Source: Parietichytrium sp. I65-24A
Lineage: Eukaryota; Sar; Bigyra; Thraustochytrida; Thraustochytriidae
NCBI GenBank assembly: GCA_012862575.1
Contig: BLSF01000066.1
Location: 162,815 to 226,814 of the forward strand
Direction: 5' to 3'
DNA length: 64,000 nucleotides
Made by a program: the position numbers and the translations under genes. Shown piece after piece: positions 37,889 through 61,196 of the stretch. Below the pieces are notes generated by a model. The model ran no database searches. It worked only from the letters and a program-made list of their open reading frames with translations, and was not told where the DNA came from. Position 1 is the stretch's first letter. Each line of letters starts with the position of its first letter.

Positions 37889-40800
37889 ATGGGCGACCGA
37901 GGCTACGAAAGTCCCGTCGAGTCTCAGGCGGAGGAGAGGGGATTCTCAACTTTGGCAAGCTTTGAAAATGTCAAGGCCGCAGTGGACGTGGAGCGAAGAC
38001 CGGTTCTCGTTCAGCTGATCCGATTTGTAGACCAAGACGATAAATTTGCAGCGAACAACAGTCTAGAAACGAAAGGGCAAGTCTCAGGCAGTGATGCCTA
38101 CTTTGACGAGCAGCCGCAAGTGAGCAGCGAGGAATGCTTAGTACTCGCGCAGGAAATTGACAGTGACTTGAATGTGACGGATTTGATGCTGTGGCGGCTG
38201 CCTCTGGACTGCAAGCTCGAATGCATCAATGACGAGCTCGTCGCAAGTCGCGCGGAGTGGCAAGAGGTGGTACGTCAGGGCCTTCTCCAAAAGCTGCCAT
38301 TTCTTGAAAATCACAGTGCAATCGAAGAGTGGCGCCGAGATATTTGGATTGAGCAGACATTCACTCGGAACTCAGACTTTCTCCTTTTCCGGGCCGAACT
38401 TCCAGAGAAAGTCTTTGAATTTTTTTTCCACGAAAACGTAAACTTTATAAATCACGACGGTGGCCTGCAGTGTTGGATGTGGCTTCCAGCGTATCTCGAT
38501 CAGGAGAGCCTTGCAGAAGAACATGTAGTGGGAGAATTATCACTCGATCAAGAGGTTGTTGCAGATGAGCATGTAGTGAGAGTCCATCCCGATGTCCGCA
38601 ATGCCTTCCTGATCAAGGAGACCGCGGACAAAGGAGCTTGGAAAACTGCTCTTCAGGAAGCCTTGGAAACTGTTTGGGGTTTTTCCAGGAGGGTGGCGGC
38701 AGAGCTACTAGAAGATATGAAGCCTGGGGATTGCTGCTCCAATAACAGCTTGCTTTCTCTGCTTCGACTTATCGCGAGGAAGGTAGTAGTAAGCGATTTA
38801 GAGAGCCTTCATGATGACATCCTGTGTGCGATCCTGCTTCAATTCGTCCCCAGTCGGGAGCGGCAGTGGCCACCGAATAGAAAAATCAGAGTTCGTGCAG
38901 CAATACCTAGGGGAGAGAGCGATTGCCTGTATCTCACCTGTGCTGCGCTTGATACGTTCGAGCGCATGCAAGTAGTTGGCCCGCAAAAGTTTTCTTTAGC
39001 TGGCCGCGAAAAGAGTCTCCGTACGTTTTTACTCAAGCTCAATTCATTGAGAGAAGCTTTTGGTTCTATTTGCTCAGAGAACTCTCGCACAATAGTCCAA
39101 GGAGGATTTGCCGCCGCCGAGATTGATTTCAAGTATCGCTCAAGCTCCAGCTTACTCGCAGCTAAAACTTCCAAGTCGCCCGAGCTGTCGAGTTGGGATC
39201 ACCACATGAAGCTCGATACTCTTGAAGCAGTATTGGATTCCTCAGCAACTAGTCCCATCTCGAGCTCGGTTGAAGAGCTCGTTGACCACCTGTTCTCTAT
39301 GCATCGTTTCAAGGATGAAAAGCCATTGAGCTGTGCGCTTCTTGGTGCTGAAGGTTACGACTTGAAAAAGTGCTGCCTTGCGATGGGAGAATTTTGGGGA
39401 GAGGAAGCTTCATCGATGGTAGTAAGAATAACAGGAAAGGGCCTGAGGGTTGCGGATTACTTTGAGGAATTGGCACAGACCTTGTATGACGATGACGATG
39501 GCAATCAGAGCAAATTGGTCATCCCATGCACTCCAGCGTACGGCAATTTGGAGGCACGACATGTTGTCGTAAATTTGCACGGGACCGGAGTGTGGATACA
39601 CGAGCCTCCGGAGCAAGTACTGATTCGGCCGCTCCTGAACGACCACGCAAGCTTAGAAACGAGTATTGTACGAAAATATATTGGGCCACTGGGTGATCGT
39701 GCTCATGCGGACGATGCAGAGAAAGAGAGCTGCGAGAGGGACTTATTTAAGCTCCTGAGGGAACTAGCCTATGGAGACATGTCAGCTCCACGAGACCTGC
39801 CAGACCTAGGAGTGAGTAGAAGAGACCCAATCCTAGAGACGGCTTGGCGCACGATCCAGGCCATCCGGGCCAGTGCAGGCAGCCTTTGTTCAAATCTGAA
39901 AGAGTCGTCTATTTTGCATGGTGGTCTGCTTTTCCATTACGTGAATTTCCTTTGCTCTCCTCCTGCAAAGGCAGTCGGAAATCGGGGTGTCCGTAAGGTT
40001 GCGCTTATGGCGGCACTATTCCAAAGCGTTGCCATGACACACTGTTTGAAGGGGTCAGGGTTCTTGGAAAGGGCTCGCCGGTGTCAAGATATTGTGGATG
40101 TAGACTCTGAGAGGAAAATAATCGCTATGCTAGAGGCTGAGCGAATCCGCGACATGGAGCGTAAAAAGGCAATATTCGCTATTGGCTCAGAGTTGAAGCA
40201 CTTTCAGGACATTGCCAATCAGAAGATTCGATCTGTTCAAGTACATACAATCGACATTCCTGCGGTGTCTTCTGGAATGGATCAAGATCCTGAAGATTCA
40301 ACGGAGAATGAATGGCAAAGCAAAGCGGCTGAATTCGACCGAAGGAACGTTTTTATCCTGATGCTTGCTATCCAAGACGAGCTTAGAAAGCTAAGGGAAC
40401 ATACACCTGCTGCAGGGGTGTATGCGGACGCAGAAAGGTTGGATGAAATGCTCGAAACGCGCATTGAACTGGAAGAAATTCTGCCAAAGTTACCCTTGCT
40501 TCAAGTTAATCAGGCGTCAGAAACAGCCAATAACCCTCGCCGCCTCATTTCGAGCCTTGTGAAGCTGGAACAATTTGAAGAGAAACAAACAAATCTACGC
40601 GAGCTGTCTAGTGATGTGCTCTTTTGTATGATGCTGAGACAGCGTTCGAGAGTCGAGGACGACCCATTTCGCGAAAAACATGCCAGCCGAATTCAGAAAA
40701 TGATGATTTCGAGCTTGTATCGGAGTAGTGCTACCCAAGGCTTTTGTGTGGGAGAGCGTACACTGATAAAGTTGCGAGGCATGTTTCCCAAGTCTATCGA

Positions 40801-43558
40801 CCCCGTAACTTCACGGAGGGTGGTTATTGTTGGGGAGGCGGGCTCCGGCAAGACGATATGGCTTAAAAAGCTTTCGATGGCAGTGCTTGAGGATGCATAC
40901 CGCTCGGAGAGTGAGGACTGGCTGATTCCCTTGTTTATAGAAGCGGATACGTTTGCCGGAATTGCGGTGCAGAACCAAGGGCAGGCGAGGGATGCGCTCT
41001 CGGCGTATTTTGAAACGCAGCTTGGAGCTCATTCCCGAAGACGCGAGTTCTTCCAACATGCATTGGATACCGGTCGTGCTGTGATTGTGCTAGATGGGCT
41101 TGATGAAGTACCCGTTGCTGAAACGCAAAACGGGCATGGTGGGAAAGGTGCAGATGGGGGTGCTCTACAAGAGTGCCTTCGTTGGCTTGCCGCGTACTTA
41201 AAAAGTCGCTTTGAGCTACGAGTGATTATATCCATGCAGGCAAGCACATTGGACTCTCATAGAGAGTGGCTTACGGCAAATCAATTTCGCACTTGCGAAA
41301 TGCCGCCATTGAATGAAGCTCAAGTCATGGAACTTGTCAGTGTAGCAATCGGAGGCTCCGCAACTGCATTCAGCCGGAAAAGTGGGGTGTTCGCAAGTCA
41401 AACGACTTCTTCGAGAACGGCGCAAGATATGGAATTTCTCACGAAGAGGATTCAGCAAACTATTGACAGCCTGTTTGTCCCGAAATTTTCAAAGGCAACG
41501 AGGAATCCCTTCCTTCTGACTCTTCTCTCTCACTATTATTGGAGAGTTCCAGACACAATTAACGTTGTTCCCACAGACTTCGCCTGCAGTAGGATTCCGT
41601 GGTTGAATAGAGCATTGAGTCTGCACGCAATCCAAGTAAGCCAATACCGCATCCTAGAGCAGCTGATGAACTTTATTCAATATCGTCAATTAAAGGAAGG
41701 AAGGGAGGCGAGAGACAAGGCTCTCCAAGAGTCCAGGGGCGAGGAAAGGAGTGCTCATCAAAAGACATCATCTACAGGTTCGAAAGCTGTAGATGTATTG
41801 GACACGATTTGCAGAATCGCTCTGACCATGTGTCGCATAAAATCTCGTGGGCTATCCAACTTGGAACAACGTTCATTTAACGCCAGGAATTATTCCGATG
41901 AGGACTCGGTTTTAATCAGTGAAGATGCTTGGAACAAGATCGAAAAGGGGGTTGCAAAGAAGTCCATTAGTGTTCTTAAATTGGAGTTGGGTGGCGTGGA
42001 GGAGGACGACAAAAAGGAGAGACCGTGTCGACTAAAGTTTACACATTTCATGTTGCAGGCGCACTACGCCGCAATGAAAGTCATTGAGACACTTCAGACG
42101 CTTTCTTCTCAGTTCGATCGCTGGCGCCTGGAAAGGTATATCGTATCCGTTTTTGGGGGGTCTCTGCTCTGTGACCCTTGGTGGCACCCGGTGTTCTTCA
42201 ACATCTGTGACGGGTTGTATGGAGACCCTCTTCTTGACGTTGTATTTCAGGTCCTCTTTGCGCCAACCGAGAGCGCTGTCGGAAGTTCTACGAGAGAAGC
42301 TTTCGGAAGCATATGGGTCGGAGCGGGATCTGCTGGGAGCACCTCATGTGCACAGCAAGTTGCGCGGCACTGGGGAGGAATTCTAAAATACTTTGGTATT
42401 CACAGAGAAAATTTTAGCGGCGATCTGAGAGACAAATCTGGAAACACTTGCCTCATGCTCGCTTGCAGGAATGGCCATGTTGCGTTTGTCACAATGTATT
42501 TAGAGTTTTTTGTGCACATTGGGAGTGGCCATGATGCACGGCTCGAGAAAAATCACTGTGGTCACACCCCGGCTCAAATTTGTCAAATTTTCCGCGCACC
42601 ACAATGTCTTCGCCCTCTAATGCGCACCATCGGTGACGGAGCGATGCTTGCGGAGTCGCAAAGTAGACTTCCGGAGATTATTGCTGCAGCAAAGGCTGAC
42701 AACATGCGGAAGGTGAAGGCCATCCTGGACCAGGATCCAGAATCTGTTTACCATCAGTCCAACACGAGGATGACTGCGATTATGTGGGCCGCAGCTCTTG
42801 ATAATGTTGGCATCGTGAAGCTTTTGGCACAACGAGATTACAGAAAGGCAACTACATCGAACAGTACAGAAGAGCCTTTCAACTGCCTCTCATTTGCCGT
42901 CGAGAATGACTCCGTCTCTTGCGTCAAATGGCTCATCGAGATGGAAGGTATGAATGTGAACTCGAGTACGCGAAATCTGTCATCTGGCGGAGACTCCCTT
43001 GCGACCACTGCCATCGCTTTTGGTTTCCAGCACACGTTTCAAATACTTTTTGAGAATGGTTGCGATTTTTCGTTTGCGTTTCTAACTGCACTTCGTCAGC
43101 ACAATCTTGAAGTCGTGGACCAGATCATTCGTTGCGGGAGTGTAAACCCGAATTTGAGGCTAGAAGACGAGCCATTGGTAGCCTATGCGGCAAGATACGG
43201 GCACCATGGAACTATTCGCGTCCTGTGCGAACGCGGGGCAGACCCGAATGTATCTTTCGAGTCCCAGTTCGGCACATCCCCTCTGCTGGTTGCTGCAGCA
43301 TGCGGGAACCTCAGATGCGTACAGGAACTCGTGCGATTTGGCGCGGACCCCCATGCCAGAATGCAAGGAAACAGCGGGATGAGCGGGTATTCCGCTTTGG
43401 ATTTGGCGTATCGATTTATAGAAAGCCCGCATAAACTCGCTCAGATGGAGGAGTTGCTTTTCGCGCTAGATGTCAAGCCGAACGTACAGTTGGTCAATTC
43501 AAGACGGCCACGCTCCCCTGTGAACAGGTTTTCCGGGCCAGGGGTCCAGCCACTCTAG
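37889..43558 (+). CDS. NLR-like STAND protein: degenerate APH-like region, NACHT, ankyrin
   Basis: 1,889-aa intronless gene, first ATG 37889. NACHT NTPase: Walker A GEAGSGKT (982-989), Walker B VIVLDGLDEVP (Asp at about 1068) with the NACHT-type extra acidic residues, then a helical region ending FTHFMLQAHYAAMKV (about 1384), the counterpart of the FxHxxxQEFLAA motif that closes STAND modules. Ankyrin repeats follow (about 1511-1850), for example GNTCLMLACRNGHVAFV, YAARYGHHGTIRVL and GADPNV. The first 980 aa match no obvious effector domain. They contain two similar blocks (about 300-415 and 508-690) whose spacing and motifs (SSILHGGLLFHYVNF, RTIVQGGFAAAEIDF) look like APH-type kinase folds that have lost the catalytic Lys and Asp. 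Likely an intracellular oligomerising sensor. Similar in layout to the protein encoded at 52425-61196. Confidence 0.9.
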   Translation: MGDRGYESPVESQAEERGFSTLASFENVKAAVDVERRPVLVQLIRFVDQDDKFAANNSLETKGQVSGSDAYFDEQPQVSSEECLVLAQEIDSDLNVTDLMLWRLPLDCKLECINDELVASRAEWQEVVRQGLLQKLPFLENHSAIEEWRRDIWIEQTFTRNSDFLLFRAELPEKVFEFFFHENVNFINHDGGLQCWMWLPAYLDQESLAEEHVVGELSLDQEVVADEHVVRVHPDVRNAFLIKETADKGAWKTALQEALETVWGFSRRVAAELLEDMKPGDCCSNNSLLSLLRLIARKVVVSDLESLHDDILCAILLQFVPSRERQWPPNRKIRVRAAIPRGESDCLYLTCAALDTFERMQVVGPQKFSLAGREKSLRTFLLKLNSLREAFGSICSENSRTIVQGGFAAAEIDFKYRSSSSLLAAKTSKSPELSSWDHHMKLDTLEAVLDSSATSPISSSVEELVDHLFSMHRFKDEKPLSCALLGAEGYDLKKCCLAMGEFWGEEASSMVVRITGKGLRVADYFEELAQTLYDDDDGNQSKLVIPCTPAYGNLEARHVVVNLHGTGVWIHEPPEQVLIRPLLNDHASLETSIVRKYIGPLGDRAHADDAEKESCERDLFKLLRELAYGDMSAPRDLPDLGVSRRDPILETAWRTIQAIRASAGSLCSNLKESSILHGGLLFHYVNFLCSPPAKAVGNRGVRKVALMAALFQSVAMTHCLKGSGFLERARRCQDIVDVDSERKIIAMLEAERIRDMERKKAIFAIGSELKHFQDIANQKIRSVQVHTIDIPAVSSGMDQDPEDSTENEWQSKAAEFDRRNVFILMLAIQDELRKLREHTPAAGVYADAERLDEMLETRIELEEILPKLPLLQVNQASETANNPRRLISSLVKLEQFEEKQTNLRELSSDVLFCMMLRQRSRVEDDPFREKHASRIQKMMISSLYRSSATQGFCVGERTLIKLRGMFPKSIDPVTSRRVVIVGEAGSGKTIWLKKLSMAVLEDAYRSESEDWLIPLFIEADTFAGIAVQNQGQARDALSAYFETQLGAHSRRREFFQHALDTGRAVIVLDGLDEVPVAETQNGHGGKGADGGALQECLRWLAAYLKSRFELRVIISMQASTLDSHREWLTANQFRTCEMPPLNEAQVMELVSVAIGGSATAFSRKSGVFASQTTSSRTAQDMEFLTKRIQQTIDSLFVPKFSKATRNPFLLTLLSHYYWRVPDTINVVPTDFACSRIPWLNRALSLHAIQVSQYRILEQLMNFIQYRQLKEGREARDKALQESRGEERSAHQKTSSTGSKAVDVLDTICRIALTMCRIKSRGLSNLEQRSFNARNYSDEDSVLISEDAWNKIEKGVAKKSISVLKLELGGVEEDDKKERPCRLKFTHFMLQAHYAAMKVIETLQTLSSQFDRWRLERYIVSVFGGSLLCDPWWHPVFFNICDGLYGDPLLDVVFQVLFAPTESAVGSSTREAFGSIWVGAGSAGSTSCAQQVARHWGGILKYFGIHRENFSGDLRDKSGNTCLMLACRNGHVAFVTMYLEFFVHIGSGHDARLEKNHCGHTPAQICQIFRAPQCLRPLMRTIGDGAMLAESQSRLPEIIAAAKADNMRKVKAILDQDPESVYHQSNTRMTAIMWAAALDNVGIVKLLAQRDYRKATTSNSTEEPFNCLSFAVENDSVSCVKWLIEMEGMNVNSSTRNLSSGGDSLATTAIAFGFQHTFQILFENGCDFSFAFLTALRQHNLEVVDQIIRCGSVNPNLRLEDEPLVAYAARYGHHGTIRVLCERGADPNVSFESQFGTSPLLVAAACGNLRCVQELVRFGADPHARMQGNSGMSGYSALDLAYRFIESPHKLAQMEELLFALDVKPNVQLVNSRRPRSPVNRFSGPGVQPL

Positions 43559-43895: not shown

Positions 43896-44957
43896 CTATG
43901 AGAAAGGGGGGTGCAGCCCTTCGAGAATTTCCGCGAGTTTTAGACTGGAGTTTGTGAAATACGGCTCGGCAAAAATTTGGTTAAACCCCCCTGCGTAGCC
44001 AAGACGGTTCTGTTGGACAGGGTTGAGGAGTTTCAGGAGGATTAGTTCCAGCTCATACGTCTCGCAGGGGTCCTGAAGAAGGCGTTGTTGCACCGGAACT
44101 GTGCAGACATCCCTGGCGATATCCTCTGGGGAGTCGGCCTCCCACGGAAGATATCCCATGTGCAGCTCGAACATGATGACTCCGAACGACCACCAGTCTA
44201 CTTCTTCTCCGTAGCTCTCGCGCTTGAGCTTTTCAGGCGATGCGTAGTAGGCTGTGCCCGCCCACATGGGACAATCTGGAGATGGGTTGTCCATGAAAAG
44301 ACTGTCGTCCTCCAAATCAACTGCGCACCCAAAGTCCAAGAGCCGTATGTGCCCATCACTGCGCACCCCAATGTTTTCAGGCTTTATATCGCCGTGAACA
44401 ATTCGCAAACGCTCATGCAGATACTGTAACGCGGAGCCAAGCTCACCCAAGCACATCCGACACTCACTGTAGCTGATAGCTTGCTCCTCCATCAAGGTGA
44501 ATAAGTCGCCTCGGTCGCAGAGTTCTACACATAGGGCCGAAAAGTTTTCTTGAAGGTGGTAGAAAAGCATTTCGATCACAAATGGGAAGCCAGAAGCTCT
44601 TTTTAAGAACTTGGTTTCTCTCTCAGCGCATTTTTGATCGTACTTGGAGGTCGAAACCTTGAGCACGACGGCTCTCCGCGAGCCACCGAGGTGGGAAGTG
44701 CTCCCTACAAACACTGTCGAGAAACCTCCGAAAGACAGCTGCCTCGCATTCGTCAAAAATGACTTTGCAATTTCAACATGCGCCTCACCCATGCTCGAAG
44801 CCGAAGGTTCGAGCCCTTGAAGAGCCCTCGCAAATTCAACCAATGTCTGATATGGAACTGCCGCGGCCAAAGCTGCTCCGGTGGAAGTTTGCCCCATTGA
44901 ATGTATACGACATCGTATTGCTGGTACGATACGCAGAAGTTCTACACCTACGACCAT
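43896..44957 (-). CDS. Small Ser/Thr protein kinase, non-RD
   Basis: 353-aa kinase that is almost all catalytic domain. Gly-loop LSFGGFSTVFVG, Lys in VVLKVSTSK (about 100), catalytic loop IVHGDIKPENIG (about 187), DFGCAVD (about 207), activation-segment end AGTAYYASPEKL, and DWWSFGVIMFELHMGYLPW. The DWWSFGV/GYLPW pattern is AGC-like. All catalytic residues are present, but the Arg before the catalytic Asp is Gly (HGD), making it a non-RD kinase. Start: ATG 44957 has the better context (GCA before, G after). The next Met (44897) would give MGQTSTGA, a good N-myristoylation signal, so a membrane-bound shorter form is possible. It lies between two giant NLR-like genes; a functional link is only inferred. 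Confidence 0.9.
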   Translation of the reverse strand: MVVGVELLRIVPAIRCRIHSMGQTSTGAALAAAVPYQTLVEFARALQGLEPSASSMGEAHVEIAKSFLTNARQLSFGGFSTVFVGSTSHLGGSRRAVVLKVSTSKYDQKCAERETKFLKRASGFPFVIEMLFYHLQENFSALCVELCDRGDLFTLMEEQAISYSECRMCLGELGSALQYLHERLRIVHGDIKPENIGVRSDGHIRLLDFGCAVDLEDDSLFMDNPSPDCPMWAGTAYYASPEKLKRESYGEEVDWWSFGVIMFELHMGYLPWEADSPEDIARDVCTVPVQQRLLQDPCETYELELILLKLLNPVQQNRLGYAGGFNQIFAEPYFTNSSLKLAEILEGLHPPFS

Positions 44958-46324: not shown

Positions 46325-46354
46325 AGGCTTGGGAAAGACCTGCCCCACAAGGTA

Positions 46355-46867
46355 TTACCAGATATACCAGAACAGCATTGCAAGTGAGCAGCGCTGTTTT
46401 CTTACGTCTTCTATTTTCTTGTTTTTCAGCTTTTTACTTTTCAAGAATTGTGGGAGTTTCTCCTGGCCTTGCTTGTCTGCTCGAGCTAGTATGGTACACA
46501 GCTTCCCGTACCGATCGAAGCCTGCCTTGATTACATGTGGGGCAGAGAGAACCTTGAGAGGGAGGGAACATTTGGCTTTGGAGGAGTCAACTTTTCTTTC
46601 TTTCTTGCGATTCTGATGACCTGCGGGGCTGGGAACCTTGAAAGGGAGTGAAGATTTGGCACAAGAGGAGGCAGCTTTTCTTTTCTTGCTTGGGAACAAG
46701 CCGAGTGCGCCTGCCGTCTTCCTTAGTTGCCATGTCGTTGTGAGCCCCGGGAACAGGAGAAGGGAAAGACGTTGTTGGCTTCTTGCTGTTGGCGTCGTCT
46801 TGGCATGTCTTGAATGTCTTGGCCCTGACCTCCAGCTACTAGGCGAGCTAGTGCTGCGAGGCCTCAC
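46355..46867 (-). other. Open frame of unknown status in the duplicated block
   Basis: 170-codon frame without an ATG near its start, repeated at 48438-48950. It encodes a Lys/Ser-rich basic product with an internal repeat (KRKAASSCAKSSLPFK, then KERKVDSSKAKCSLPLK). The two copies differ by at least one Val/Ala change and silent changes. It could be an exon of a nuclear protein, but no splice partners were established. Confidence 0.3.
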
Positions 46868-47310
46868 TTTACTGCGCAGGATTGGAGGTGCTTAGACTTG
46901 CTGAGAGTTGGCAGAAAGAAAAAATGAAATCTCCGAATTTTCCTGTGAAACCAGAAGAATGCGCTCCTTGCAAGTGTTGGATCAAGCTTTTGAACAGCTC
47001 TATCACGACAGGTTTGGGAGCTTGTCACTCCTCGTCGTCTCAAGTTGTGTTTATATTTTGATCAGCTTCCACACTTCAAGTTGCAAAGCAATTTTCACCT
47101 CCTCCTGCTTTGATGAGACAAGGAAAGGATCAGAGAAACTAAGAAAGCTGTATGTAATCAATTGTATTCAAAGGTGTTTACAAGAGAAGCGTGAGACAGC
47201 TTCTGCTGAGAAATTTCGTGGAGGTGTACGAGAGAGCCTGCGATTGTGGAAACAAACCGAATAAATTAGCTTCATCGCTACGAGCCGTAGCAGGCAACAC
47301 TCCCACCCCA

Positions 47311-47776
47311 TTACAAAAGCTCAGGATTCCACTCCTCAGGCTGCATTCGAAAATAGTGCTCCACAGTCTTTGTTCTGCAAGAGACAGCCATCACATCAAT
47401 AGGGCCGGTAGTTGCCAAGTGGAGTGCTCCCCGGCTGTCACAGAAAAGAAAAAGTTTTCGAAACCCCAGATTGCACGCTCTTTTGCGAGCCGTCTCGATG
47501 CGCATCTGGGCTGAGGGTGCCCGGTCCACTCAGAATAAGTGCTAAAAGACCTTAAAAGCAAGCTCACACTTTTGGGAGGCTGTTTGTTGCCATCAGCCTC
47601 GCTCGCCTTGCCATTCCCATCCCGGGGTTTGATGCAGCTTGTTGTGGCATGGCCAGGAACTGGCTGCTCTGCGAGTGTGCGAGGCCATCGTCCGTTGACA
47701 CCACATGCAAAGGGGACTCTGGCCGCTCCCTCACCAACGCCTTGCCAGCCGCGGACATCATTCTTCTGCCCCCCAT
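47311..47776 (-). pseudogene. Possible gene or retroelement fragment, two short frames
   Basis: Two minus-strand frames (47776..47564, starting ATG; and 47529..47311), repeated at 50054..49842 and 49807..49589. The second encodes LFLFCDSRGALHLAT followed by SCRTKTVEHYFRM. In order and spacing this recalls the RNase H part of Ty1/copia polymerases (CDN/S..A..LA, then RTKHI.. YHF). A GTGTGAG donor and CCCAG acceptor could join the frames in phase 0, but a stronger-looking donor two bases on does not fit. Treat as a decayed copia-like remnant or an unrecognised small gene; evidence is weak. Confidence 0.3.
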
Positions 47777-48406: not shown

Positions 48407-48407
48407 N
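48407..48407. other. Single N, scaffold join
   Basis: One undetermined base exactly between the two copies of the 2.1-2.3 kb duplication. The pattern fits an assembler placing a minimal gap between overlapping but unmerged contigs. Confidence 0.9.
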
Positions 48408-50693: not shown

Positions 50694-52424
50694 CTGATTG
50701 GCTGTAAATTATTATTCTGAGAATTCTGAGAACAAGTCAATCAATCAAAACAATCAAATCGATCAAGAGATTGCGCGTAACACTTGTTGTGCGTAAACTA
50801 TCCGCACATTTCACAATTCGAGACTCTCTCTACTACCTGAGTCGATAGCTAGCTATTAACCCTTCTTCCGCTCTTTCCTAGGAAGTTTACGGTAGATGGG
50901 TGCTAAAGGCGCTTCCTTGACACTGTGAATCGCCGACCCTCACCGTGGTAGATATAGCGTAAACGGTAGACACGCGCTAGTAAGCCCTCGTTTCTCCGCA
51001 TTCGAGGGGCACTATCGCAGGCGTAGTGATTCCTAGCGGTGACAAGGGGCGAAAGTGTTGGCTTTCCTGGCACTGTTTGAATTTATTCCATTGTAATGAA
51101 AAGCCTATTGCGGCGATAGCGCTTCCGTAGCTCCGTCCATCGAGAGTNTTCGAGGGGCACTATCGCAGGCGTAGTGATTCCTAGCGGTGACAAGGGGCGA
51201 AAGTGTTGGCTTTCCTGGCACTGTTTGAATTTATTCCATTGTAATGAAAAGCCTATTGCGGCGATAGCGCTTCCGTAGCTCCGTCCATCGAGAGTCCTGG
51301 AGCGGAGATGGGTGAGAAATAGATCGTGCTTGGTGATTGGGAAAGTTCTTCCAAACTCTCCAACCCTGAATTCTGCTCAAATTTCATCACTATTTCTATG
51401 TGTATTTTATTTAAAAATGTTTGTTTATAAGTAACTTAGAAAAGGCTGTCCTTTCCATTCTTCAGCATCTTTTTTTGATTCATTTTAGTTTTAAAAACTC
51501 ATACAAAATGTGAGCACAAGTTATTCTTTCATTCTTTCATCACTCCAAAACCACTCGTCCTGGTAGTAGTAAGAAAGCTATTGAACGCTAATCGACAGTG
51601 CGTTTGTCTCGGCAGCTGTTACGCCTTTTTGGAAAGAAGTGCTTTCCATGTCCTGGGCGCATTGCTAAACAAAAGACTATTCGCCCATAGCATACATGAC
51701 ATGAATGGTGGAACCGTACTGGTACGTGTACTAGCACTCGAACAAGCAATGCTTGACTGAGTCTCAGAGCATTTCCACGTTTTCCTTCTCCCAGGAGATA
51801 GCGACACCGGCTATGAGGCCACTAGTACCTGGAACCATTTTGTGCCCCCTCACATCGTTTTTGCAAAACTTGACAAGAACTCTCTTCGCGTCAATCTATA
51901 AATCTAATTAGGGGCGGAAGCTAGCACGGGGTCCACAGCGGAGATGCAGGGATATAGCATTGGCTAGGACTAAGGATACACATCAATGTTTTCAGCGGCG
52001 CAAAGCAATACTTGCGTAACAAAAGATGCAGGGACTACCACCGAGCGGAGGCTCCGAGAGTGGGAAGAAGGAAAGAATTCGAATGTTAGGTAGTGTGCGG
52101 GTAGAGCAACGGTAACAGTAAATCTCTCTACAAACCTTAATTCATTGCAAAAACACTCCCTTTGGTGAGGGAAACCTCTTTTCAATTTGAACACGCGTAT
52201 TGTATTTGCTCTAAATCACCTTTGGCTGACCTGACCCAATTTTTAAAAAGCTCTTGCTCTCTAATGCTCTCTGATAAAATATCTGAATATTATTCTGAAC
52301 TCTGAACTGTGTGAAATCCTTTTGAATGGTGAATTTGACAGTGAGCTCTTCCGAGTTTATTTATATTTGGAGCAAAATTTCTCTTGTTCACTTTCAATTC
52401 TTTCTTTTCTTTTGCAAATATTTC
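50694..52424. other. Intergenic, no gene recognised
   Basis: About 1.7 kb downstream of the giant minus-strand gene. Apart from the 147-bp duplication, it is A/T-rich DNA with no coding signal. Confidence 0.5.
51001..51295. repeat. 147-bp perfect direct duplication around an N (51148)
   Basis: 51001-51147 and 51149-51295 are identical, each beginning TTCGAGGGGCACTATCGC and ending CCATCGAGAGT, separated by one N. As with the larger block, it looks like an unmerged contig overlap and probably represents one genomic copy. Confidence 0.95.
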
Positions 52425-55400
52425 TCATTGCAGGTCGCTGTCGGCGCCACTGAGATCCTTGTTTTCTTTGGCAAGCTCAGACTGCGGCTCGTTCCCGTCG
52501 TGCTCGCCGGTCGCAGGCAGGTCCTTGTGTTCTGGTTCCTCGTTTTGAAACTCGCCGCTCTCTAGTTGGGAAGTTTCTTGAGCAGCTCGAGGCAGCGGTG
52601 TCCCGGTGTCTGACGACCCTTGCTCGGATTGAACATCGGTAGGTTTCTCCTCGTTCAAGATTTCCAATCCCCGGCGACTCGGGTCGCCAGTGGGAAGCTC
52701 CTCCCGGTCCCCGTGGTCGCACAGGTCGAGTAGCACAAGTTCGCACTCCAGATTACCGCTGTTGATGAAGCGATCCGAAAGGTACAACTCACTATCCCAG
52801 GGCTTCACAATTCCAGTCATTCTGCAGAGTAAGCTGCACAAGCCAGCCGAGTTCCGTTCGCACGCCACGTGTAGCGCATTCTGGCCTTTACCATTTAGGA
52901 GTTGCACAACAAGATTTTGCACACCGAGAATGCTCTCTATTTCCTCTTGCTTTTGTTGAACCATGTTAACAAATTCGATGGAGTGAGCGCGGACAGCTTC
53001 AAACCAGAGGGCAGAAAAGACTTCTCTTCCCGAGGGTACGGCCCGAAGCAAGGCGATGAGGGCATCCACTCCCTTGGTGGTTGTATCGAAACCAAAGCTC
53101 GTAAAGCCAGGTAAACAACCCAACGCTCCAAGAAATGCCTGCTGGCAGCGAAGATCGCCAAAGTCTTGCTCTGCGATCTCGGATCTGATGTACAGTTCGG
53201 CACTGCCTTCGTTTAGACTTGAGTTCCAAAGCCGTGCTATCCACGGAACGCAGTACTTTGGACGTAGACGGACGTCCCAGTCCAAAGGGGGACGGCTCGA
53301 GAGCTGTGCCTCACAAAGCTCAAAGGTTGTCTGCTTGTTAGCGAGCGAGATTGTACGAAAGGTCGCACAAAAGCTGTGAATCATTGCGCGAAAATCTTGC
53401 AGGCTGACTGTGACACCCTCGAGACGATTCGCGGCGCTCAGTAAAAACTGGAAAAACGGAGTTCCCTCGTCTTTCAAAGTGGTGTGTGCAAATTGGGCAC
53501 TCGTTGCCAAAATAAATTTTCGAAAGAATTCACCGCCAGACCTAAACCTCTCGACCGCGTACTCTAGCCTCGAATGTGCATCGAAGTTGACGCCAAAATG
53601 AATTGTGCTGGCTTCGCTCAGAGAATCGCAGATGAGCTCAAAGTAATCCGAGTCTTCAGACGTGAAGTGAGTGAGCTTTTTGTCAAGCATGGCTTTTGCG
53701 TGTGGCAAACACAATCCCTCCGCGATCCTAGTGAGGCGGCTTGAATAGAGCCTGAAGAAATTTTGTCGGATCGAAAGCAAGTATCGCAGAGACTCCTTGG
53801 CGTCTTGCTCAATTGCAAACTCTACACATGCGGGCACCAGAGAATAAAGCTTCTCCGCGTCTCCGTCGGAGATAGCTTTTGACACCAAGGCATCCACGAG
53901 ATGCAACTCGTTACAGGCTGAAGCATAGAGCAGTGCAGGAATAGTCTGAGTCACGGGTCCACTGAGGGCAGCGCAGGAGAACGCAGTAAGAACCCCGCCT
54001 CGAATCAACTGGGCTACTTTCTCAGCCCGGTCTTCGCGAATACTCCAAAATGATTCTTCAGTCTCCTCTGCCTTGAAGACATTGACGAGCGCCAAGTCGC
54101 TTTCTAGAGGATCGAGAAGTCGGTCAAACACTCGCTGATAGTCGTCTCGAGGAATTCGGGAGCGATAATAGTTTAAAATGCCGCGCATCTGAAAGTCGGG
54201 ATGAGCGAGTCCGTTGGCCCAGCTTGCGGCTAGTAAACAGATATCCTGTACCTTACATCTCGAAACTCTTTCCCGTATCATTTCAAAAAGGTTTTGCAAA
54301 TGGCCCTCGCCGAGCTGTCGCCCCGAAAAACCATTTCTGCCCGCCACCATGTGCAAGAAAGGTTGGCAGGCCCATCTGACCGCATCAAGCATCAGCTCCT
54401 TGAGTGCATGAACTGGTAGGGAAAAGATGACTGTAGCAATAACATCGCTCTGCTCTCGATGAGACGTCGCCAACTCACACAGGGTAAGGAAGACTCGTCG
54501 CACGAAGGCATCCTCAGCTGCGCTTTCGCCGAATACTTGGAGGAGAAATGTGTGTACGTTCAGGTCTCTTCTATGCCCCCCCGGACTAAATAAACAATGT
54601 TGCAAACAGTTCGCGACGAAGGCCGCAATTATAGGAGACTTTGCAAATACAAGCTCTTGATCAACATCTTTGGCGCGGTCGCTGCGCGTTCGGAACTCGA
54701 GCAGCTTACCAGGCCATGTGCTGCCTTGAAAGAGAGCATGCATAATGCTTAAAGAATCCTTCGAGAGATGCAGTACACCGATATCGTGGAAGATCTGTTC
54801 ACGAACGACGATCTCGTCTTTGCCTATCGCTTCCTGCAGGCGATCAAAAACTATTCTATACTTTTCGAAAATACCGCCACTTGACTCAAAAAGAGTTTGG
54901 CAAGCACTTTCGGCGATGTGAGTCCACGCCTTCAAGAAGCTAGCCCGGTCTTCACTCTGAGCAAGGAAGTTCCTAAAGCATGGCAGATTGTAGAATGCTT
55001 TGCTGATGCTTGCTCTCCAGGTAGAGCCATTCTTTGAAGAAAGGTGTGCTTTTTGCAAAGCGTCTTGTTTGAGACCGTAATTGCCGGCAGAGTAGTGTTG
55101 CACTAGCCAAGGGTCATAGGCTGGCCAATGAGCAATTCGAGAATCAAGAAGCATGCACATCTCCGGAAGCCTCAGCTCTCTTGCCACCGAGAGATGATAG
55201 TTCAGGTCGACACGGTGGATGTTTTCCGAAGAAAGAAGTATTTCGAGGCACACGTTGGCATTTTGCTCCACTGCAACTGCAAAAATAACTGCCCTCTCGC
55301 TCTCTTCAATTACACCCTGTGATTTGTCCAGCTCTGAAACTATTTTTGGATCGTCACGCGCGACAGCATACGCAAGCTTGGATAAACGCGGGCCAAACCT

Positions 55401-58400
55401 GGAGGTTGCCATTTCCTCGTTAAATGAGCTATCTTTTACGCCCTTGTATTCCCCTCTTTCCATAAGCTCAAAGTCAAAGGTTCCCGGGCACATAATTCTC
55501 CAAATGATCCGTTCGCATTCTTCATCTCCGCGCGCATACTTAACTAGCATTCCGGGAGCCATCGAACGCAAAAGAGTTCGAGCGTCCGGGCTCAACGCGG
55601 CTTGTGTACCCCAAAGCATACCGGAGAGAAGAATGCACAGATCTAAAAACCCAAGACTGCAAGCTATGTGCAGCCCGTCGTGGCCATCATCGTCTACAAA
55701 GTGCTCCACCAAATTGGAGCACTGGTATACTTGCTCGATCGTTCCTTGAAATTGTGCAGCAAAATTCAAGAATGGCACGCACCTAGTTCGTACTGCGTCA
55801 AGCCAAATCAATCGAAATACACCTTCGCTTACCTTGGCAAGTGGTTGCGTGGTAGTCTCGAAGAATAGCTGGGGCAAAAGCGACTTTGCATCGGTCGTAT
55901 TCTCAACGATCCACAAAAGCAACAATCGCCACTCCTGAGTCTCCAGTGTCTTCGTTCGAATATTGGTCTCCAAGAAAGTCTCGAGCTCCGCTTTGCCTTC
56001 CTGATCAAAGTACTCGGCAACCAGAAAATTCGCCACAGCTGGAAGATAGGGCAACGACACTGAAGAAGACTCGTTGTTTCTCAAGGCGTCGAAAACCACC
56101 TCCTTGATTTCTTTTCCCTCATCACACTCACCCCAATTCACTTGGCCAATTTTCGCGCTGTACATCCGCCATTCATTCGTTCGTAAAGACATGCAGATGA
56201 TCGCCCCCACAATCTCATGAAGGCTTACCATGTGCTTTGTGGGCTTGATATGGCGATTAAAGATGGGCAAGTTTGCGGCGCGGCACTGAATGGTTTCACA
56301 GTCCCGAGACTTGTACCACTCGGCAAGACCGGATATTTGAGTACTTGAAACTAGCTGTGCGAAATAAGGATGAGACACGACACCAGCAAAGCTCGCGTGA
56401 GTGAAGAGTTGGAGAATGTGTGGGCAAATCGTGGCACTGCTGCTCTCCAAGTTCCAGAGCGTTCGACTCGCATATTTTCTGTAGTTTGCGGCGAAAAACT
56501 GCAATGCCTCAAAAGAACCTTGCTCCACGGAAAACTGTATACAGACTGGAACGTATTTCTGGAGATACTCCTCTCTGTTCCTGAGGAACTGCATTAGTGC
56601 GTCAATTGCGAGCATGTTATTCAGCGCAGCGGCGAAAGGAAGGAGAGGAAGGCCAAACGAAGTAGTCTCGTAGACTGCCTCAGAGTTGGCGCTGAGAAGG
56701 TCTCGAAAATTCTTCAAATTTGACACACCTTCTTTAAGCAGTGAGAACAGTGGCGAGCTCTGCACCAACGAGCTCGCCTGTCTCTTCAAAATCAGATCGC
56801 TCAAAGCTGGCTCTAATAGACGCCGGCGAACCCATGAAACATATGGGTTCTGGTGCTCATGTACAGAAGAGTTCCCAAATACACCATGGGCCCCCGCCAA
56901 ATCCCGATTTAAATTAGCCTCTCCAAAATCCTCAGAATCACCAACGCGCACTGACCGCTGCTGGTGCTGCTGGTACTGCGATATTTCGTTGCGCTCTGTC
57001 ATCATAATCTCCTTACGTCCTGTTTGTTCGCCATTAAACTCGAAAAGTTCTTCTTTCACGATCTTCAACAGTCCGGCACAATTTTTTCCGCGAGTATCGT
57101 CATGGCAAAATTTCGCATTCTTTGCATCAGAGCTCCAAGGATAAAGCGTCAAATCTTCTCGCAAAGCTTTCTGAAGTTCACATGAAAAAGGGAGCTTGTT
57201 ATTGCCAGCCTCACAACCATCGCCAACAGCAGCAAAGTCGAAAAGGAAAATGAACATGTCAGCCCATCCATATTGTCTTGCAATCCGAAAGAGAGATTTC
57301 TGCCTCGTGCTACCACCATGGGCATCAAGAGCCGGAGCGTCCCGTGTGACGGAGAACAGATAATTGGAGCGAAGAGCAGAGCCAAGAGTAGTGTGTGGAA
57401 AAGACGCATCCGGCTTCAGCTGCAAAGCCTCTGTCAGTCGATTCAAAAACGGGATCCTGCGCCGTGCAATCGCCTCTTCCCACAGCTTTGCTATGGAAGA
57501 TTCGCTTAATACAAGTGAATCTCCAGCAAAGAGCCTCCAAAATATTGTTTTCAAAGCAGAAGAATTATACATTGCTTCACATACCCCGAAAAAAATATGC
57601 CGCGTCCCCATGGACTCAAGTCGAGAGTTTCCAAAGTACCTTTCGGCAAGAGCAAAAGTGTTGGTCCTTGAACGCTTCAGACTTTGGGCTATAAACTTGA
57701 CGATGAAGCCGTCTCGGATCAGGCTATATTTAAATGTGACCATAGCCGTTTGCAAGCCGTGTTGGACAGAAGTCTCTAATGAGAAGATGTCAGACGTGCC
57801 AGCTTTCGTGTCTTTGAACAGCGCGGCAAGTGCCTTCATGCAATCGAGCCCAAGCTGAGGCGAAAGCCGCCCTTCCCTCATCCGTGTAGACACAAGTTTA
57901 TAGAGGTCACGGAAAGGGAAACAAGGGGTGCTGTACTCCTGGGACATGTCTTCATGCATCTCCATGGCAAACTCCCCAATCATCGCGCAAAATTCCGCCC
58001 TGCACTGCTTTTGACCTTGTCCGAGACCCAGCCGCTCGATGAGTGTCTGGTCGATGTAATGTCCGACAAGTGCATACCTGCTCAAGTATTTGCTGCCTTC
58101 GGAAATGACAGGCTGAAAAACTGGAATTGCGCTCGACCTTGACTCGAGTAGCTGAGCTTCACGACTAAATGGGATTGGATGAGGAAGAGAGGTGTACATC
58201 TTGCACAGGTGTTCCACCTCCAGTATATCTGGGTCCAGCCTGTCCCGAGTCTCAATCCGTTTATTGCAATTTGGTTCAAGATCGACGCACTGAAACCCTT
58301 GCAATGCCAATTCCTCTTCGAAAGGTGAGTTGCGCTGCTTCTCTAAAGACTGTACGTACGAAGGGAAACGACTCCGAGCCGTAATTACCATGCGTTGGTT

Positions 58401-61196
58401 TGGCAAAGCTTCCAAGACACTTAAGACCCAGCGTTGTATTTGGCTGAAGGCGAGCTGTGAAGAGTCAACGATTAGGACTAGTCTTCCCGTGATGAATCCC
58501 CGCCTTAAGAATCTGGCCATCTCAGCGTCTTCGTCTGCCCCGATCGCAGAAATGATTGATGAGGACGAAACTGTTCCACTGCTTCCATAGCTTTTCAAAA
58601 CCTGCGCAGCGTTAAGAACCAGAGGGAACAGACTCCAAATTGTTTGGTTTCGCGACCTGTCGCTCTTCGTTCGCAGTAGGAGCTTCAACGCCAGAGAACG
58701 CATGGCAGTAGTTTTTCCTCCGCCGTTTTGGCCAAAAAGCACGAAGCGACGTGCAGAGCTAGTCTGTGGAGTTTTCCAATCAGTTTTCATGGCCCGGAGA
58801 CAAGCCTCCACGGCTGGCATTGGGGAGATATAGGTTCCCAAAGATAGATCGTGAATTGCGAATTCTACGTCATCAAACGGCCAGAATTCTTTCTGGCCAG
58901 ACCGTTCTTGACTCCGCGTTAGATCAACTATAAATCGATCTATGCGGATTCTGAGTTGTTCATCAGAGGCTGCTTGGCGCCACTCTTTCAGCGCATCCAG
59001 AAAATACTCGACATCGAGGAAGCGCATCCCTGCTGTAGAGCCGCCAACTTTGTTGCTGTTCAGACGAATATGCCGACCATTTAGCTTTTCATGGAGATTC
59101 AGGAGAAAGCTTCCCCACATCGACTTGGGATCTTTGTTGAAATGTTCTGACTCAGTGTCTTCCAGCGCTACCAGTTGTAACCGAAAGAGTTCTTGCTCAG
59201 TAAACTTGGACGACAGATGAGAAGCGGCGCCAGACAAATACTTTTGCTCGCCCCTAACTAATCGCTCCAAGGACAATTTATTTTGCGCAGCCGAGTTTGG
59301 AAGTGTTGCAAAGGGTAACAAAAGTTTAATCGTCTGCTTGGCGTGTAGAAGCGCTGCCCGCATGGCCATCTCCCTCCGGATATCCGTGAGTTCAACGAAA
59401 TCAAGCGCATTGATTGCGAAGAAGAGTCTCCCAACGTGCAAGTTAAGTGGAGTCTGATCAAGCTCGCAGTAATCCGGAAGATAGTATCTCATCGCCTGTG
59501 TGAGCTTCCAGACCCGTTCCAGTATTGCCGTTGATTCTCCCGAGCTAGAGTTGGTGGGCAGCAACGTGGTCAGAGGAGGCAGCGCAACCGGGTCGTGCTC
59601 TGCAAGGGCTCGAAGGAAGTGAAGAAATTCAGATCTGTGCACACAGTCATCCCTAGCGACACGAGCCTCGGGGTCAGTCAGGAAGGACTCGGTCTCGCTA
59701 AGAGGGGTATATTCCAGCAAAATGGTGGACTCAAGCTTTGCAATATCTCTCAAAGCCGGACCCGGGCCCGAGAAGGCGAAGTCGATTATCCAGACAAGGT
59801 TGGTGGCGTCCAGAAGGATGTTCTCCCCGTTCAGATCCCCGTGTATCATGGACGAAATACAAGTTGCGGGACTGTCGAGAGCACGAGCAAGAACTTGGTT
59901 CTGGAAGAATTCAAAGAATTCATAGGCAGATGTCTTGTCGAGACCCAATGTTTCTTTCACAATCTGCTCAGAGATAGCACCGTGAACCAGGCACCTCTTT
60001 ACCAGACTTGGCCGGCCCTCGTGCTCTTTACTTTCCATTTCTTCTTTGCTTGGGGTGCTCTGTTTCAAAATCTTTAACTCCTCCAGTGTGAGAGGATCGC
60101 AATCTCCTATTCTCTTCTTGATTTCAGACTTGAGATAGTAGCTTCCGTGGTCCACGTCCAGTTTCTCTCCCTGGCGATCGGGTTTCCTTGCAAGCGATAT
60201 AATGTGCCCATTTCCGAGCTTAGTATTGGACATTGCTCTCCGGAAAATAGTTCCAAAAACCTCGTGAAGTACCTCATGACAGCCTTTCAGACCACTATCA
60301 TGACACCGGTCACTCGTACAAGAGAGCTCTTTATCCAAGATTTGTCGAAAGGTCCTGAGTTTGCTTGAGTGTTCATCAGAGTCTCCTACACCACCGCACA
60401 GCTCAATTCTAAGAGCTTTAGTTTCATCCTTCTCTTCCTCGCACGGTGCCCTCATTTTCTGAGGAAGAATGATTTGAGGGGCGTTTTCTCCCAAGAATGG
60501 CGCAATCTTTGACATCCTCCTGTGTTCGTCCCTGATTTTGTCCCAGCTGTCGGTCTTGACTACGCATGGCTGGTCAATGTTGTCATCAAATGAATTATTT
60601 GTACAGCGAAACACAGCAGCTCCGCTCTTGCCCCCGTGAAGCGTGCTCGCCTGCACTCTTGCAGCATTAGGGAATCGCTCAGCAATGGCAATAGGCAACT
60701 TGGAATCCTGTGGCGCAGAATCCGGCTCCTTGGACGACAGTGCCACCAAGAACCGTGGCCAATTCTGGAGGATGATTTTCCTGTCCTCGTCTGTAATCTT
60801 GCTCTGATCGTATATCTGAGCGGAAGGTTCAGTCCCAAATAGTTTCGCCAGGTGACCATCCGGGTCCTCGTATCCCCATCGCCACAATTTCTCCTTGAAT
60901 TCGCCAAAAGTTAAAGAAGTCTCCATCACCCCGAAGAGCGGGTGTTTGATGTAATCATCTGGAATGATCTTGTTCTTCTCCTCCTCCTCGCGCTCCTGCG
61001 ATTGAAGCTGTGGTGACGCGGCACTGAGGACGCTGCTAAAGTAATTTCCCTGGTGCAGGACGGATTTCTTTTCGGACTTGACCTTGCTCGTTGAGCTACT
61101 AGTGAGATATCGGGCTGTCCTAGCTGGCGAGCTCGATTGCGGGCCACTCTCTCCTGGTCGTCTCAGTTGACGGTCTCCTGGCGCTGACGAATACAT
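52425..61196 (-). CDS. Giant APH-like kinase/STAND NTPase/repeat protein
   Basis: 2,923-aa single-exon gene from ATG 61196. After a Ser-rich leader and a helical segment (about 93-157) comes an APH/choline-kinase-like domain (about 165-530): Gly-rich HGGKSGAAVF (about 187), Lys in CVVKTDS (about 213), catalytic MIHGDLNGENILLD (Asp about 451, Asn about 456) and metal-binding VWIIDFAFSGPG (Asp about 470). All expected catalytic residues are present. A helical linker leads to a NACHT-like P-loop: Walker A FGQNGGGKTTAMRS (about 821), Walker B LVLIVDSSQL (about 909; the extra acidic residues are missing) and sensor RMVITARSR. About 1,700 C-terminal residues are repeats: WxxAVxxxxxPFLN blocks at about 1245, 1805, 2268 and 2732, ankyrin-like LHIAC/LHVAC helices, and C/F-x-FxxEQ blocks at about 1555, 1977 and 2462. 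The tail is Glu/Ser/Pro-rich. Probable phosphotransferase-linked sensor or conflict protein. Confidence 0.88.
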   Translation of the reverse strand: MYSSAPGDRQLRRPGESGPQSSSPARTARYLTSSSTSKVKSEKKSVLHQGNYFSSVLSAASPQLQSQEREEEEKNKIIPDDYIKHPLFGVMETSLTFGEFKEKLWRWGYEDPDGHLAKLFGTEPSAQIYDQSKITDEDRKIILQNWPRFLVALSSKEPDSAPQDSKLPIAIAERFPNAARVQASTLHGGKSGAAVFRCTNNSFDDNIDQPCVVKTDSWDKIRDEHRRMSKIAPFLGENAPQIILPQKMRAPCEEEKDETKALRIELCGGVGDSDEHSSKLRTFRQILDKELSCTSDRCHDSGLKGCHEVLHEVFGTIFRRAMSNTKLGNGHIISLARKPDRQGEKLDVDHGSYYLKSEIKKRIGDCDPLTLEELKILKQSTPSKEEMESKEHEGRPSLVKRCLVHGAISEQIVKETLGLDKTSAYEFFEFFQNQVLARALDSPATCISSMIHGDLNGENILLDATNLVWIIDFAFSGPGPALRDIAKLESTILLEYTPLSETESFLTDPEARVARDDCVHRSEFLHFLRALAEHDPVALPPLTTLLPTNSSSGESTAILERVWKLTQAMRYYLPDYCELDQTPLNLHVGRLFFAINALDFVELTDIRREMAMRAALLHAKQTIKLLLPFATLPNSAAQNKLSLERLVRGEQKYLSGAASHLSSKFTEQELFRLQLVALEDTESEHFNKDPKSMWGSFLLNLHEKLNGRHIRLNSNKVGGSTAGMRFLDVEYFLDALKEWRQAASDEQLRIRIDRFIVDLTRSQERSGQKEFWPFDDVEFAIHDLSLGTYISPMPAVEACLRAMKTDWKTPQTSSARRFVLFGQNGGGKTTAMRSLALKLLLRTKSDRSRNQTIWSLFPLVLNAAQVLKSYGSSGTVSSSSIISAIGADEDAEMARFLRRGFITGRLVLIVDSSQLAFSQIQRWVLSVLEALPNQRMVITARSRFPSYVQSLEKQRNSPFEEELALQGFQCVDLEPNCNKRIETRDRLDPDILEVEHLCKMYTSLPHPIPFSREAQLLESRSSAIPVFQPVISEGSKYLSRYALVGHYIDQTLIERLGLGQGQKQCRAEFCAMIGEFAMEMHEDMSQEYSTPCFPFRDLYKLVSTRMREGRLSPQLGLDCMKALAALFKDTKAGTSDIFSLETSVQHGLQTAMVTFKYSLIRDGFIVKFIAQSLKRSRTNTFALAERYFGNSRLESMGTRHIFFGVCEAMYNSSALKTIFWRLFAGDSLVLSESSIAKLWEEAIARRRIPFLNRLTEALQLKPDASFPHTTLGSALRSNYLFSVTRDAPALDAHGGSTRQKSLFRIARQYGWADMFIFLFDFAAVGDGCEAGNNKLPFSCELQKALREDLTLYPWSSDAKNAKFCHDDTRGKNCAGLLKIVKEELFEFNGEQTGRKEIMMTERNEISQYQQHQQRSVRVGDSEDFGEANLNRDLAGAHGVFGNSSVHEHQNPYVSWVRRRLLEPALSDLILKRQASSLVQSSPLFSLLKEGVSNLKNFRDLLSANSEAVYETTSFGLPLLPFAAALNNMLAIDALMQFLRNREEYLQKYVPVCIQFSVEQGSFEALQFFAANYRKYASRTLWNLESSSATICPHILQLFTHASFAGVVSHPYFAQLVSSTQISGLAEWYKSRDCETIQCRAANLPIFNRHIKPTKHMVSLHEIVGAIICMSLRTNEWRMYSAKIGQVNWGECDEGKEIKEVVFDALRNNESSSVSLPYLPAVANFLVAEYFDQEGKAELETFLETNIRTKTLETQEWRLLLLWIVENTTDAKSLLPQLFFETTTQPLAKVSEGVFRLIWLDAVRTRCVPFLNFAAQFQGTIEQVYQCSNLVEHFVDDDGHDGLHIACSLGFLDLCILLSGMLWGTQAALSPDARTLLRSMAPGMLVKYARGDEECERIIWRIMCPGTFDFELMERGEYKGVKDSSFNEEMATSRFGPRLSKLAYAVARDDPKIVSELDKSQGVIEESERAVIFAVAVEQNANVCLEILLSSENIHRVDLNYHLSVARELRLPEMCMLLDSRIAHWPAYDPWLVQHYSAGNYGLKQDALQKAHLSSKNGSTWRASISKAFYNLPCFRNFLAQSEDRASFLKAWTHIAESACQTLFESSGGIFEKYRIVFDRLQEAIGKDEIVVREQIFHDIGVLHLSKDSLSIMHALFQGSTWPGKLLEFRTRSDRAKDVDQELVFAKSPIIAAFVANCLQHCLFSPGGHRRDLNVHTFLLQVFGESAAEDAFVRRVFLTLCELATSHREQSDVIATVIFSLPVHALKELMLDAVRWACQPFLHMVAGRNGFSGRQLGEGHLQNLFEMIRERVSRCKVQDICLLAASWANGLAHPDFQMRGILNYYRSRIPRDDYQRVFDRLLDPLESDLALVNVFKAEETEESFWSIREDRAEKVAQLIRGGVLTAFSCAALSGPVTQTIPALLYASACNELHLVDALVSKAISDGDAEKLYSLVPACVEFAIEQDAKESLRYLLSIRQNFFRLYSSRLTRIAEGLCLPHAKAMLDKKLTHFTSEDSDYFELICDSLSEASTIHFGVNFDAHSRLEYAVERFRSGGEFFRKFILATSAQFAHTTLKDEGTPFFQFLLSAANRLEGVTVSLQDFRAMIHSFCATFRTISLANKQTTFELCEAQLSSRPPLDWDVRLRPKYCVPWIARLWNSSLNEGSAELYIRSEIAEQDFGDLRCQQAFLGALGCLPGFTSFGFDTTTKGVDALIALLRAVPSGREVFSALWFEAVRAHSIEFVNMVQQKQEEIESILGVQNLVVQLLNGKGQNALHVACERNSAGLCSLLCRMTGIVKPWDSELYLSDRFINSGNLECELVLLDLCDHGDREELPTGDPSRRGLEILNEEKPTDVQSEQGSSDTGTPLPRAAQETSQLESGEFQNEEPEHKDLPATGEHDGNEPQSELAKENKDLSGADSDLQ

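Follow-up and report, generated by a model that had tools for sequence, protein, structure and literature searches.

Two very large genes lie tail to tail, 8.9 kb apart, in a 64-kb stretch of the genome of the thraustochytrid Parietichytrium sp. I65-24A (contig C66, BLSF01000066.1, positions 162815-226814; hereafter the window), which stops at the contig end in an assembly of 42.5 Mb and 172 contigs. Gene A (37889..43558, + strand; ATG at 37889, frame from TTG 37847) encodes 1889 amino acids and gene B (52425..61196, - strand) 2923, and a protein kinase gene occupies part of the gap. An initial annotation had placed two giant genes here, and both are indeed uninterrupted, stop-free frames of 1889 and 2923 codons, with no N base inside either. 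Their third-position G+C (0.51 and 0.53) is somewhat lower than the 0.55-0.68 of seven other window genes. Judged from their sequences, A and B are very diverged members of one family, in which a predicted TCAD9 kinase of the APH type is followed by a NACHT nucleoside triphosphatase (NTPase) and then a repeat module, and the two neighbours have lost motifs in different domains of this layout. The family has about eight members in this genome, named here by contig: A, B, two C114 copies (an assembly gap interrupts one of them), C5, C1, C19 and C74.

Domain architecture of genes A and B

In gene A, residues 501-800 (39389..40288, +) form a TCAD9-like, APH-fold region that scores 43 bits against the family TCAD9 profile, compared with 0.1 for the best of 200 shuffles of the region (hhalign, 97%). 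Its catalytic motifs are lost: in the family alignment YGNLE replaces the catalytic HGDLN (residues 551-555, 39539..39553, +, also in the profile alignment), HEPP replaces IDFA, and no lysine is in register. The APH-like region that the initial annotation saw ahead of the NTPase is present in both genes, with the correction that in A it is a predicted pseudokinase for which Pfam reports no TCAD9 match. The NACHT NTPase of A with its winged-helix part (residues 961-1443, 40769..42217, +) carries Walker A GEAGSGKT (40832-40855, +) and Walker B VIVLDGLDE (41081-41107, +), and is matched by Pfam (E 2.9e-10) and by the family NACHT profile (139.6 bits). The post-NACHT module and ankyrin repeats follow at residues 1380-1889 (42026..43555, +; Ank_2 E 3.9e-28), placed also by the family alignment. 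In a PDB sequence search with A, the 60 matches listed of 345 all fell within the ankyrin part, and the structure model of A has a mean predicted local distance difference test score (pLDDT) of 47.

Active APH-type kinases are marked by an HGDxxxxN loop, an IDF motif and an N-lobe lysine. Gene B has all three within residues 171-640 (59277..60686, -): the catalytic loop HGDLNGEN (59820-59843, -), WIIDFA (59775-59792, -) and the lysine of VVKTD, and Pfam reports TCAD9 (PF19974, E 2.6e-22) and APH (E 2e-6). Its NACHT (residues 812-1209, 57570..58763, -) is degenerate, as seen in the family alignment. Two pieces, 812-951 and 1164-1209, together score 21.7 bits on the family NACHT profile, a weak match compared with 4.6 for the best of 200 shuffles. 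Walker A is kept (GQNGGGKT, 58710-58733, -), LVLIVDSSQL (58452-58481, -) stands in place of the Walker B DGLDE, and the NPLMLSLL block is also lost. Of the NACHT-type P-loops first proposed for both genes, that of A lies in a well-kept NACHT; in B the NACHT match lies below the Pfam curated cut-off.

Ankyrin-type repeats after the NTPase had likewise been ascribed to both genes. This holds for A; in B the ankyrin matches are weak, all under Pfam cut-offs, and the tail is better described as diverged copies of the family module. A post-NACHT module profile of length 323, built from seven family members with A included and B left out, scores the B tail at 85.1 bits in total (best of 200 tail shuffles, 4.3), with the pieces in module order. 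Copy I spans residues 1174-1568 (56493..57677, -; pieces 1174-1256 and 1483-1568, profile 29-118 and 224-309), copy II residues 1773-1990 (55227..55880, -; profile 76-312), copy III residues 2209-2475 (53772..54572, -; pieces 2209-2260 and 2417-2475, profile 30-80 and 253-311), and the partial copy IV residues 2724-2792 (52821..53027, -; profile 94-167), which is weak alone at 2.7 bits and is backed by its similarity to copy II. The copies also resemble one another independently of the profile: Smith-Waterman scores, with the best of 100 shuffles in brackets, are 104 (53) for I-III, 129 (50) for II-IV, 81 (62) for II-III and a borderline 56 (55) for I-II, and pairs I-IV and III-IV do not exceed their shuffles. 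Self-BLAST of B, unlike Smith-Waterman and the profile, did not reveal internal repeats. On ankyrin-bearing paralogues the profile gives 21.8 (C1) and 19.4 (C5), compared with 90.4 for the B tail and 138 for C74, a closer member. Module profile and copy-to-copy similarity together argue that B repeats, about three and a half times in diverged form, a predicted sensor unit that its relatives carry once. A PDB sequence search with B gave no match at E 1. The structure model of B has a mean pLDDT of 62, and the lack of a NACHT chain among the structure matches listed for it is uninformative either way.

Homology and the wider family

Direct BLASTP between A and B is weak (E 2e-4, 0.001 and 0.026 one way; 0.008, 0.013 and 0.018 the other), with the matches in the same order. 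The paralogue C114b, which has the full TCAD9-NACHT-ankyrin layout with motifs intact, matches A co-linearly (24.8% over 1424 residues, E 3e-84) and B at 34% over 473 residues (E 6e-66), and the related protein P0001 matches A at E ~7e-61 to 9e-61. Through these bridges the homology of A and B, proposed initially, is certain despite the weak direct match, and it extends beyond the P-loop, as the C114b comparisons, the family alignment and the kinase profile all indicate. The shared blocks first noted after the NTPase also hold their order: the first two pairs occupy the same family-alignment columns, at FAHLTLQEHLAAE and WWHDVFLIFCE, and the third (VVFQVLFA with TIFWRLFA) lies in the same part of the module profile.

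A word filter limited the homologue searches made with A, with B and with C114b residues 575-1200. The search with A gave no match at E 1e-3, which reflects the filter and not an absence of kin, given the direct match to P0001; that with B gave three, one labelled Durusdinium. Of 7993 candidates scored with C114b residues 575-1200, 17 outside proteins matched at E <=1e-3, some of which align to the NACHT part alone; Hondaea and Polarella appear among their labels. Hondaea fermentalgiana, a member of the Thraustochytrida, has a protein that matches C114b at 47% identity over 42% of the searched stretch (E 5.7e-89). Other relatives come from records labelled as dinoflagellate. No relative was found on the viral contigs scanned, nor in a phage search with the first 1065 residues of B.

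Several relatives have features of their own. In one C114 copy, 915 bases of the N-terminal part (L009:8803-9717) are 98.7% identical to the other (L008) and end exactly at an N; assembly may account for some of the tandem copy. The C74 member (L055:574-4377, -) has NACHT and ankyrins in an open frame that starts after the kinase position; no kinase was found in this frame, and no TCAD9 match was reported on the contig. The C19 gene (L013/L014) is co-linear with P0003, a protein filed under the dinoflagellate Durusdinium trenchii (31% over 3166 residues; sisters at 100/100), a likeness that may reflect either a shared ancient gene or thraustochytrid DNA in the Durusdinium trenchii assembly. 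P0006, a member of the family from Hondaea that goes under the name ankyrin repeat domain-containing protein 17, yielded no Walker A to the pattern, perhaps through an exon missed in the predicted model. P0012 matches the catalytic region of B over 52 residues and has neither an HGD motif nor a TCAD9 label.

A joint tree of 18 proteins (outside it stood P0011, P0012, P0015-P0019, C74 and the bacterial proteins) places both A and B with the clade of C114b, P0001 and P0004-P0006 at modest support (91/83). Their end branches are 4.03 and 2.72, compared with 0.58-0.66 for a five-member core. When A is left out and the tree is built on the kinase alone, B falls together with C114b, P0001, P0004, P0005 and P0006 (99/95). 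A NACHT-only tree without B leaves A unplaced (52/19), so its sister is undecided. P0010 and P0013 were absent from both single-domain trees.

Opposite motif losses

In the family alignment the kinase motifs (the lysine of VVK, HGDLNxxN and W.IDFA) are kept in B, C114b, C5, C1 and P0001-P0003. A pattern table of 29 rows extends this: H[GN]DL[NH]xxN and W.IDFA occur in all 18 proteins other than A that have a TCAD9 region (B, C114b, C5, C1, the two frames of C19, P0001-P0010 and P0013-P0015) and not in A. Two bacterial rows have the same patterns, one with IDFS; the remaining rows (a C114a fragment, P0011, P0012 and P0016-P0019) have neither TCAD9 label nor motif. Conversely, wherever the pattern found a Walker B in a NACHT row, A included, it reads DGhD[ED]; B (DSSQL) and C1 (DGLSH) are the exceptions, and none was found in P0015 and P0017.

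The same opposition appears in profile scores. Kinase and NACHT profiles were built from ten family members, and a member was omitted from the profile when it was itself scored; A has 41.9 bits for the kinase and 142.6 for NACHT, and B has 306.2 and 20.9. Across 18 proteins the kinase-to-NACHT ratio is lowest in A (0.29) and highest in B (14.65), the next values being 0.68 and 3.79. P0004 lacks its N-terminus, and its kinase score is therefore low.

Neighbouring genes and assembly

The kinase gene between A and B (43896-44957, -; Pkinase E 1.8e-39), noted initially as part of the locus, is present and is of the AGC type, judging by the solved chains nearest to it, those of S6 kinase alpha-3 and PKC iota. 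No relative of it was found in nine stretches of <=10 kb each around the paralogues and upstream of the window, where the sole alignments under E 1 were to the catalytic loops of TCAD9 genes. An ordinary AGC-type gene with no relative in the stretches searched beside the paralogues, it shows no sign of belonging to the system and was rejected as a part of it. A Pfam scan of 10 other window frames matched seven, all ordinary (kinesin, CDC73, aldehyde dehydrogenase, peptidase M13 and others), and gave no match for three. With neighbours of this kind there is no sign of a conflict island. For A and B themselves, PADLOC returned ankyrin-type and P-loop matches only, and NCBIfam ankyrin and kinase-loop matches only, far under curated cut-offs.

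Besides the kinase gene, the gap between A and B includes ~7.4 kb with no reading frame >178 amino acids between stops. Positions 46325-48406 and 48408-50693 are 99% identical in two pieces around a single N (48407), and 51001-51305 similarly holds near-identical copies that meet at an N (51148). Since a DNA search reported the copies of 46325-50693 nowhere else in the genome, these are probably contig overlaps or haplotypes left unmerged, and the spacing of A and B probably includes ~2.1 kb of assembly duplication. A 9-base tandem repeat lies at 36943-37048, ~0.8 kb upstream of A; further repeats form an imperfect cluster near 15 kb (15094-15437). Rfam gave no match over the whole window.

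Other STAND genes were observed in the same genome. In two of them (L048, C23:153177-156779; L051, C2:493051-496599) a CHAT protease domain is joined to a STAND/NACHT NTPase; one also has an SH2-like match, and the two possibly represent a caspase-like NLR branch in this protist. L043 (C79) combines DUF4062 and NPHP3/NACHT with a weakly matching beta-propeller, and in L046 (C24) the NACHT is accompanied by a winged helix of the NWD1 type and by WD40 repeats.

A divided pair or independent divergence

A and B are most likely NLR-like sensors with an APH-type kinase as output. Ligand sensing would fall to the C-terminal repeats, the NACHT would drive assembly of the proteins through an ATP-dependent change, and the N-terminal kinase, trans-activated, would phosphorylate a small molecule, peptide or protein. 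What the sequences show is that the genes are homologous and adjacent, how their domains are ordered, which motifs are lost and that the module is multiplied; the assembly, ligand sensing and kinase substrate, a role in defence and a physical partnership of A with B are inferred. Gene B would contribute an active kinase and an enlarged sensor with little NTPase activity; A, with a better-kept NTPase, repeats and a dead kinase, could serve as partner, scaffold or brake. The reciprocal motif losses suggest that the two are dividing switch and output, and we see an even chance that they are fast-diverged TCAD9-NACHT-repeat receptors, probably NLR-like, that do so as a neighbouring pair. If so, the reciprocal active-site loss would offer a clean test of how an NLR pair divides sensing, switching and output, and of whether a metabolite kinase can be an immune effector. 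A stricter version, in which one ancestral kinase-NLR was split by reciprocal inactivation so that only the A-B heteromer is a working switch with metabolite phosphorylation as its output, is unlikely; to our knowledge, metabolite phosphorylation has not been shown as an NLR output.

Several observations weigh against a division of roles between the two genes. A has lost the TSR arginine that follows Walker B (the stretch reads ISMQ), so its NACHT is not pristine. The altered Walker B of C1 comes without a known partner. Nor are A and B alone in having diverged fast, as the branches of C1 (3.13), P0014 (2.71) and C5 (2.66) are long too. With six own-genome genes scored, the chance that two neighbours are the two extremes of the ratio is 1 in 15, which makes the opposite extremes suggestive and not proof. 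Passages of PMC9528088 describe plant pairs (RGA4/RGA5, RRS1/RPS4) in which one member can do without its P-loop and one carries an additional domain for sensing; like A and B, these are two linked, diverged NLR genes. In those passages the genes of a plant pair mostly stand head to head and share a promoter region, whereas A (+, 37889-43558) and B (-, 61196-52425) are tail to tail at 8.9 kb with a gene between, and are at most pair-like. Finally, no orthologue of either gene was found in the word-limited searches.

The long branches of A and B, of the same kind as those of C1, C5 and P0014, would also be expected if the two had diverged independently and were neighbours by local duplication or chance, their separate relaxations implying no joint action. 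Loss of parts by a single member on its own is seen in C1 and in C74, which apparently has no kinase, and the tail-to-tail order with a foreign gene between is consistent with this. We regard independent divergence as a serious possibility, somewhat short of even, and what it leaves unaccounted for is that A and B are the opposite extremes of 18 proteins, each keeping what the other lacks. The family might instead serve internal signalling or development, as a kinase scaffold that is switched by nucleotide and responds to a metabolite or protein state of the host. The co-linearity of C19 with the Durusdinium-filed protein over >3000 residues and the housekeeping look of the neighbours with Pfam matches would fit such a role, which we hold as a tentative option only; the lack of an orthologue of A or B in two word-limited searches, as for fast-changing genes, and the association of TCAD9 with conflict systems described in a figure legend (PMC10910872) speak against it. 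Independent decay or non-immune signalling is nearly as likely as the divided pair.

The strongest own-genome kin of A are the C114 copies, and C114b has the complete layout with intact motifs; A might act as a pseudokinase regulator of the C114 paralogue(s) and not of B. This is improbable, as they lie on a different contig and descent is the sole link. That A or B is a pseudogene or assembly artefact we consider highly improbable: apparent unmerged overlaps do meet at single N bases in the gap, but the long uninterrupted frames, the conserved family columns and the absence of N inside either gene argue otherwise.

Comparison with known systems

Animals, plants, fungi and bacteria have all been studied for NLR-type immunity. 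Among the open-access matches listed, none concerned NLR or NACHT proteins of thraustochytrids or labyrinthulomycetes. The A/B family has the three-part NLR architecture of sensor repeats, STAND switch and effector. Animal NLRs (NLRP3, NOD2, NLRC4) combine a PYD or CARD effector with a leucine-rich repeat sensor, whereas A and B have an APH-type kinase and ankyrins with the family module. In fungal NLRs the pairing of NACHT with ankyrin repeats occurs too. Varied N-terminal effectors, PKinase among them, are described for fungal NACHT/NB-ARC NLRs (PMC4986451); the A/B family is like the ankyrin-bearing forms in its NACHT and repeats, and differs in its TCAD9/APH region, which those passages do not name.

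The figure legend cited above associates TCAD9, the kinase domain of the A/B family, with vWA-MoxR-VMAP systems (PMC10910872). These ternary systems were called biological conflict systems by Kaur et al. (2020; PMC7159879), who noted, in main-text passages where the term TCAD does not appear, that a few have an active APH-type kinase, with small molecules as possible substrates. Pfam recognised no vWA or MoxR gene in 13 window frames (A, B, the kinase and 10 others), a scan that multi-exon genes could escape. Ten prokaryotic loci match the TCAD9 alignment, and seven were scanned with Pfam (L022 and L024 were among those left out). TCAD9 occurs in other settings in L017 and L018 and below cut-off in L025, and L023 is a plain APH. 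In a Pseudomonadota metagenome-assembled genome (L016:5269-7572), one chain joins a weak isochorismatase match (E 0.007), TCAD9 (E 8e-48) and a DSP-type phosphatase.

The closest bacterial parallels are TCAD9-STAND proteins of Amycolatopsis (L019-L021). L019 and L021 have near-complete TCAD9 (E 4e-79 and 3e-83); L019 has AAA_16 and NACHT matches under cut-offs, and L021 none at E 1e-3. All three carry HGDLNARN, IDFA, a P-loop and DG[VL]DE, in the same order as the A/B family, TCAD9 first. They differ from A and B in keeping both motif sets, and L019 and L021 also in having no ankyrin match at E 1e-3. A kinase-armed STAND family common to bacteria and protists would directly link predicted bacterial conflict systems and protist receptors by sequence.
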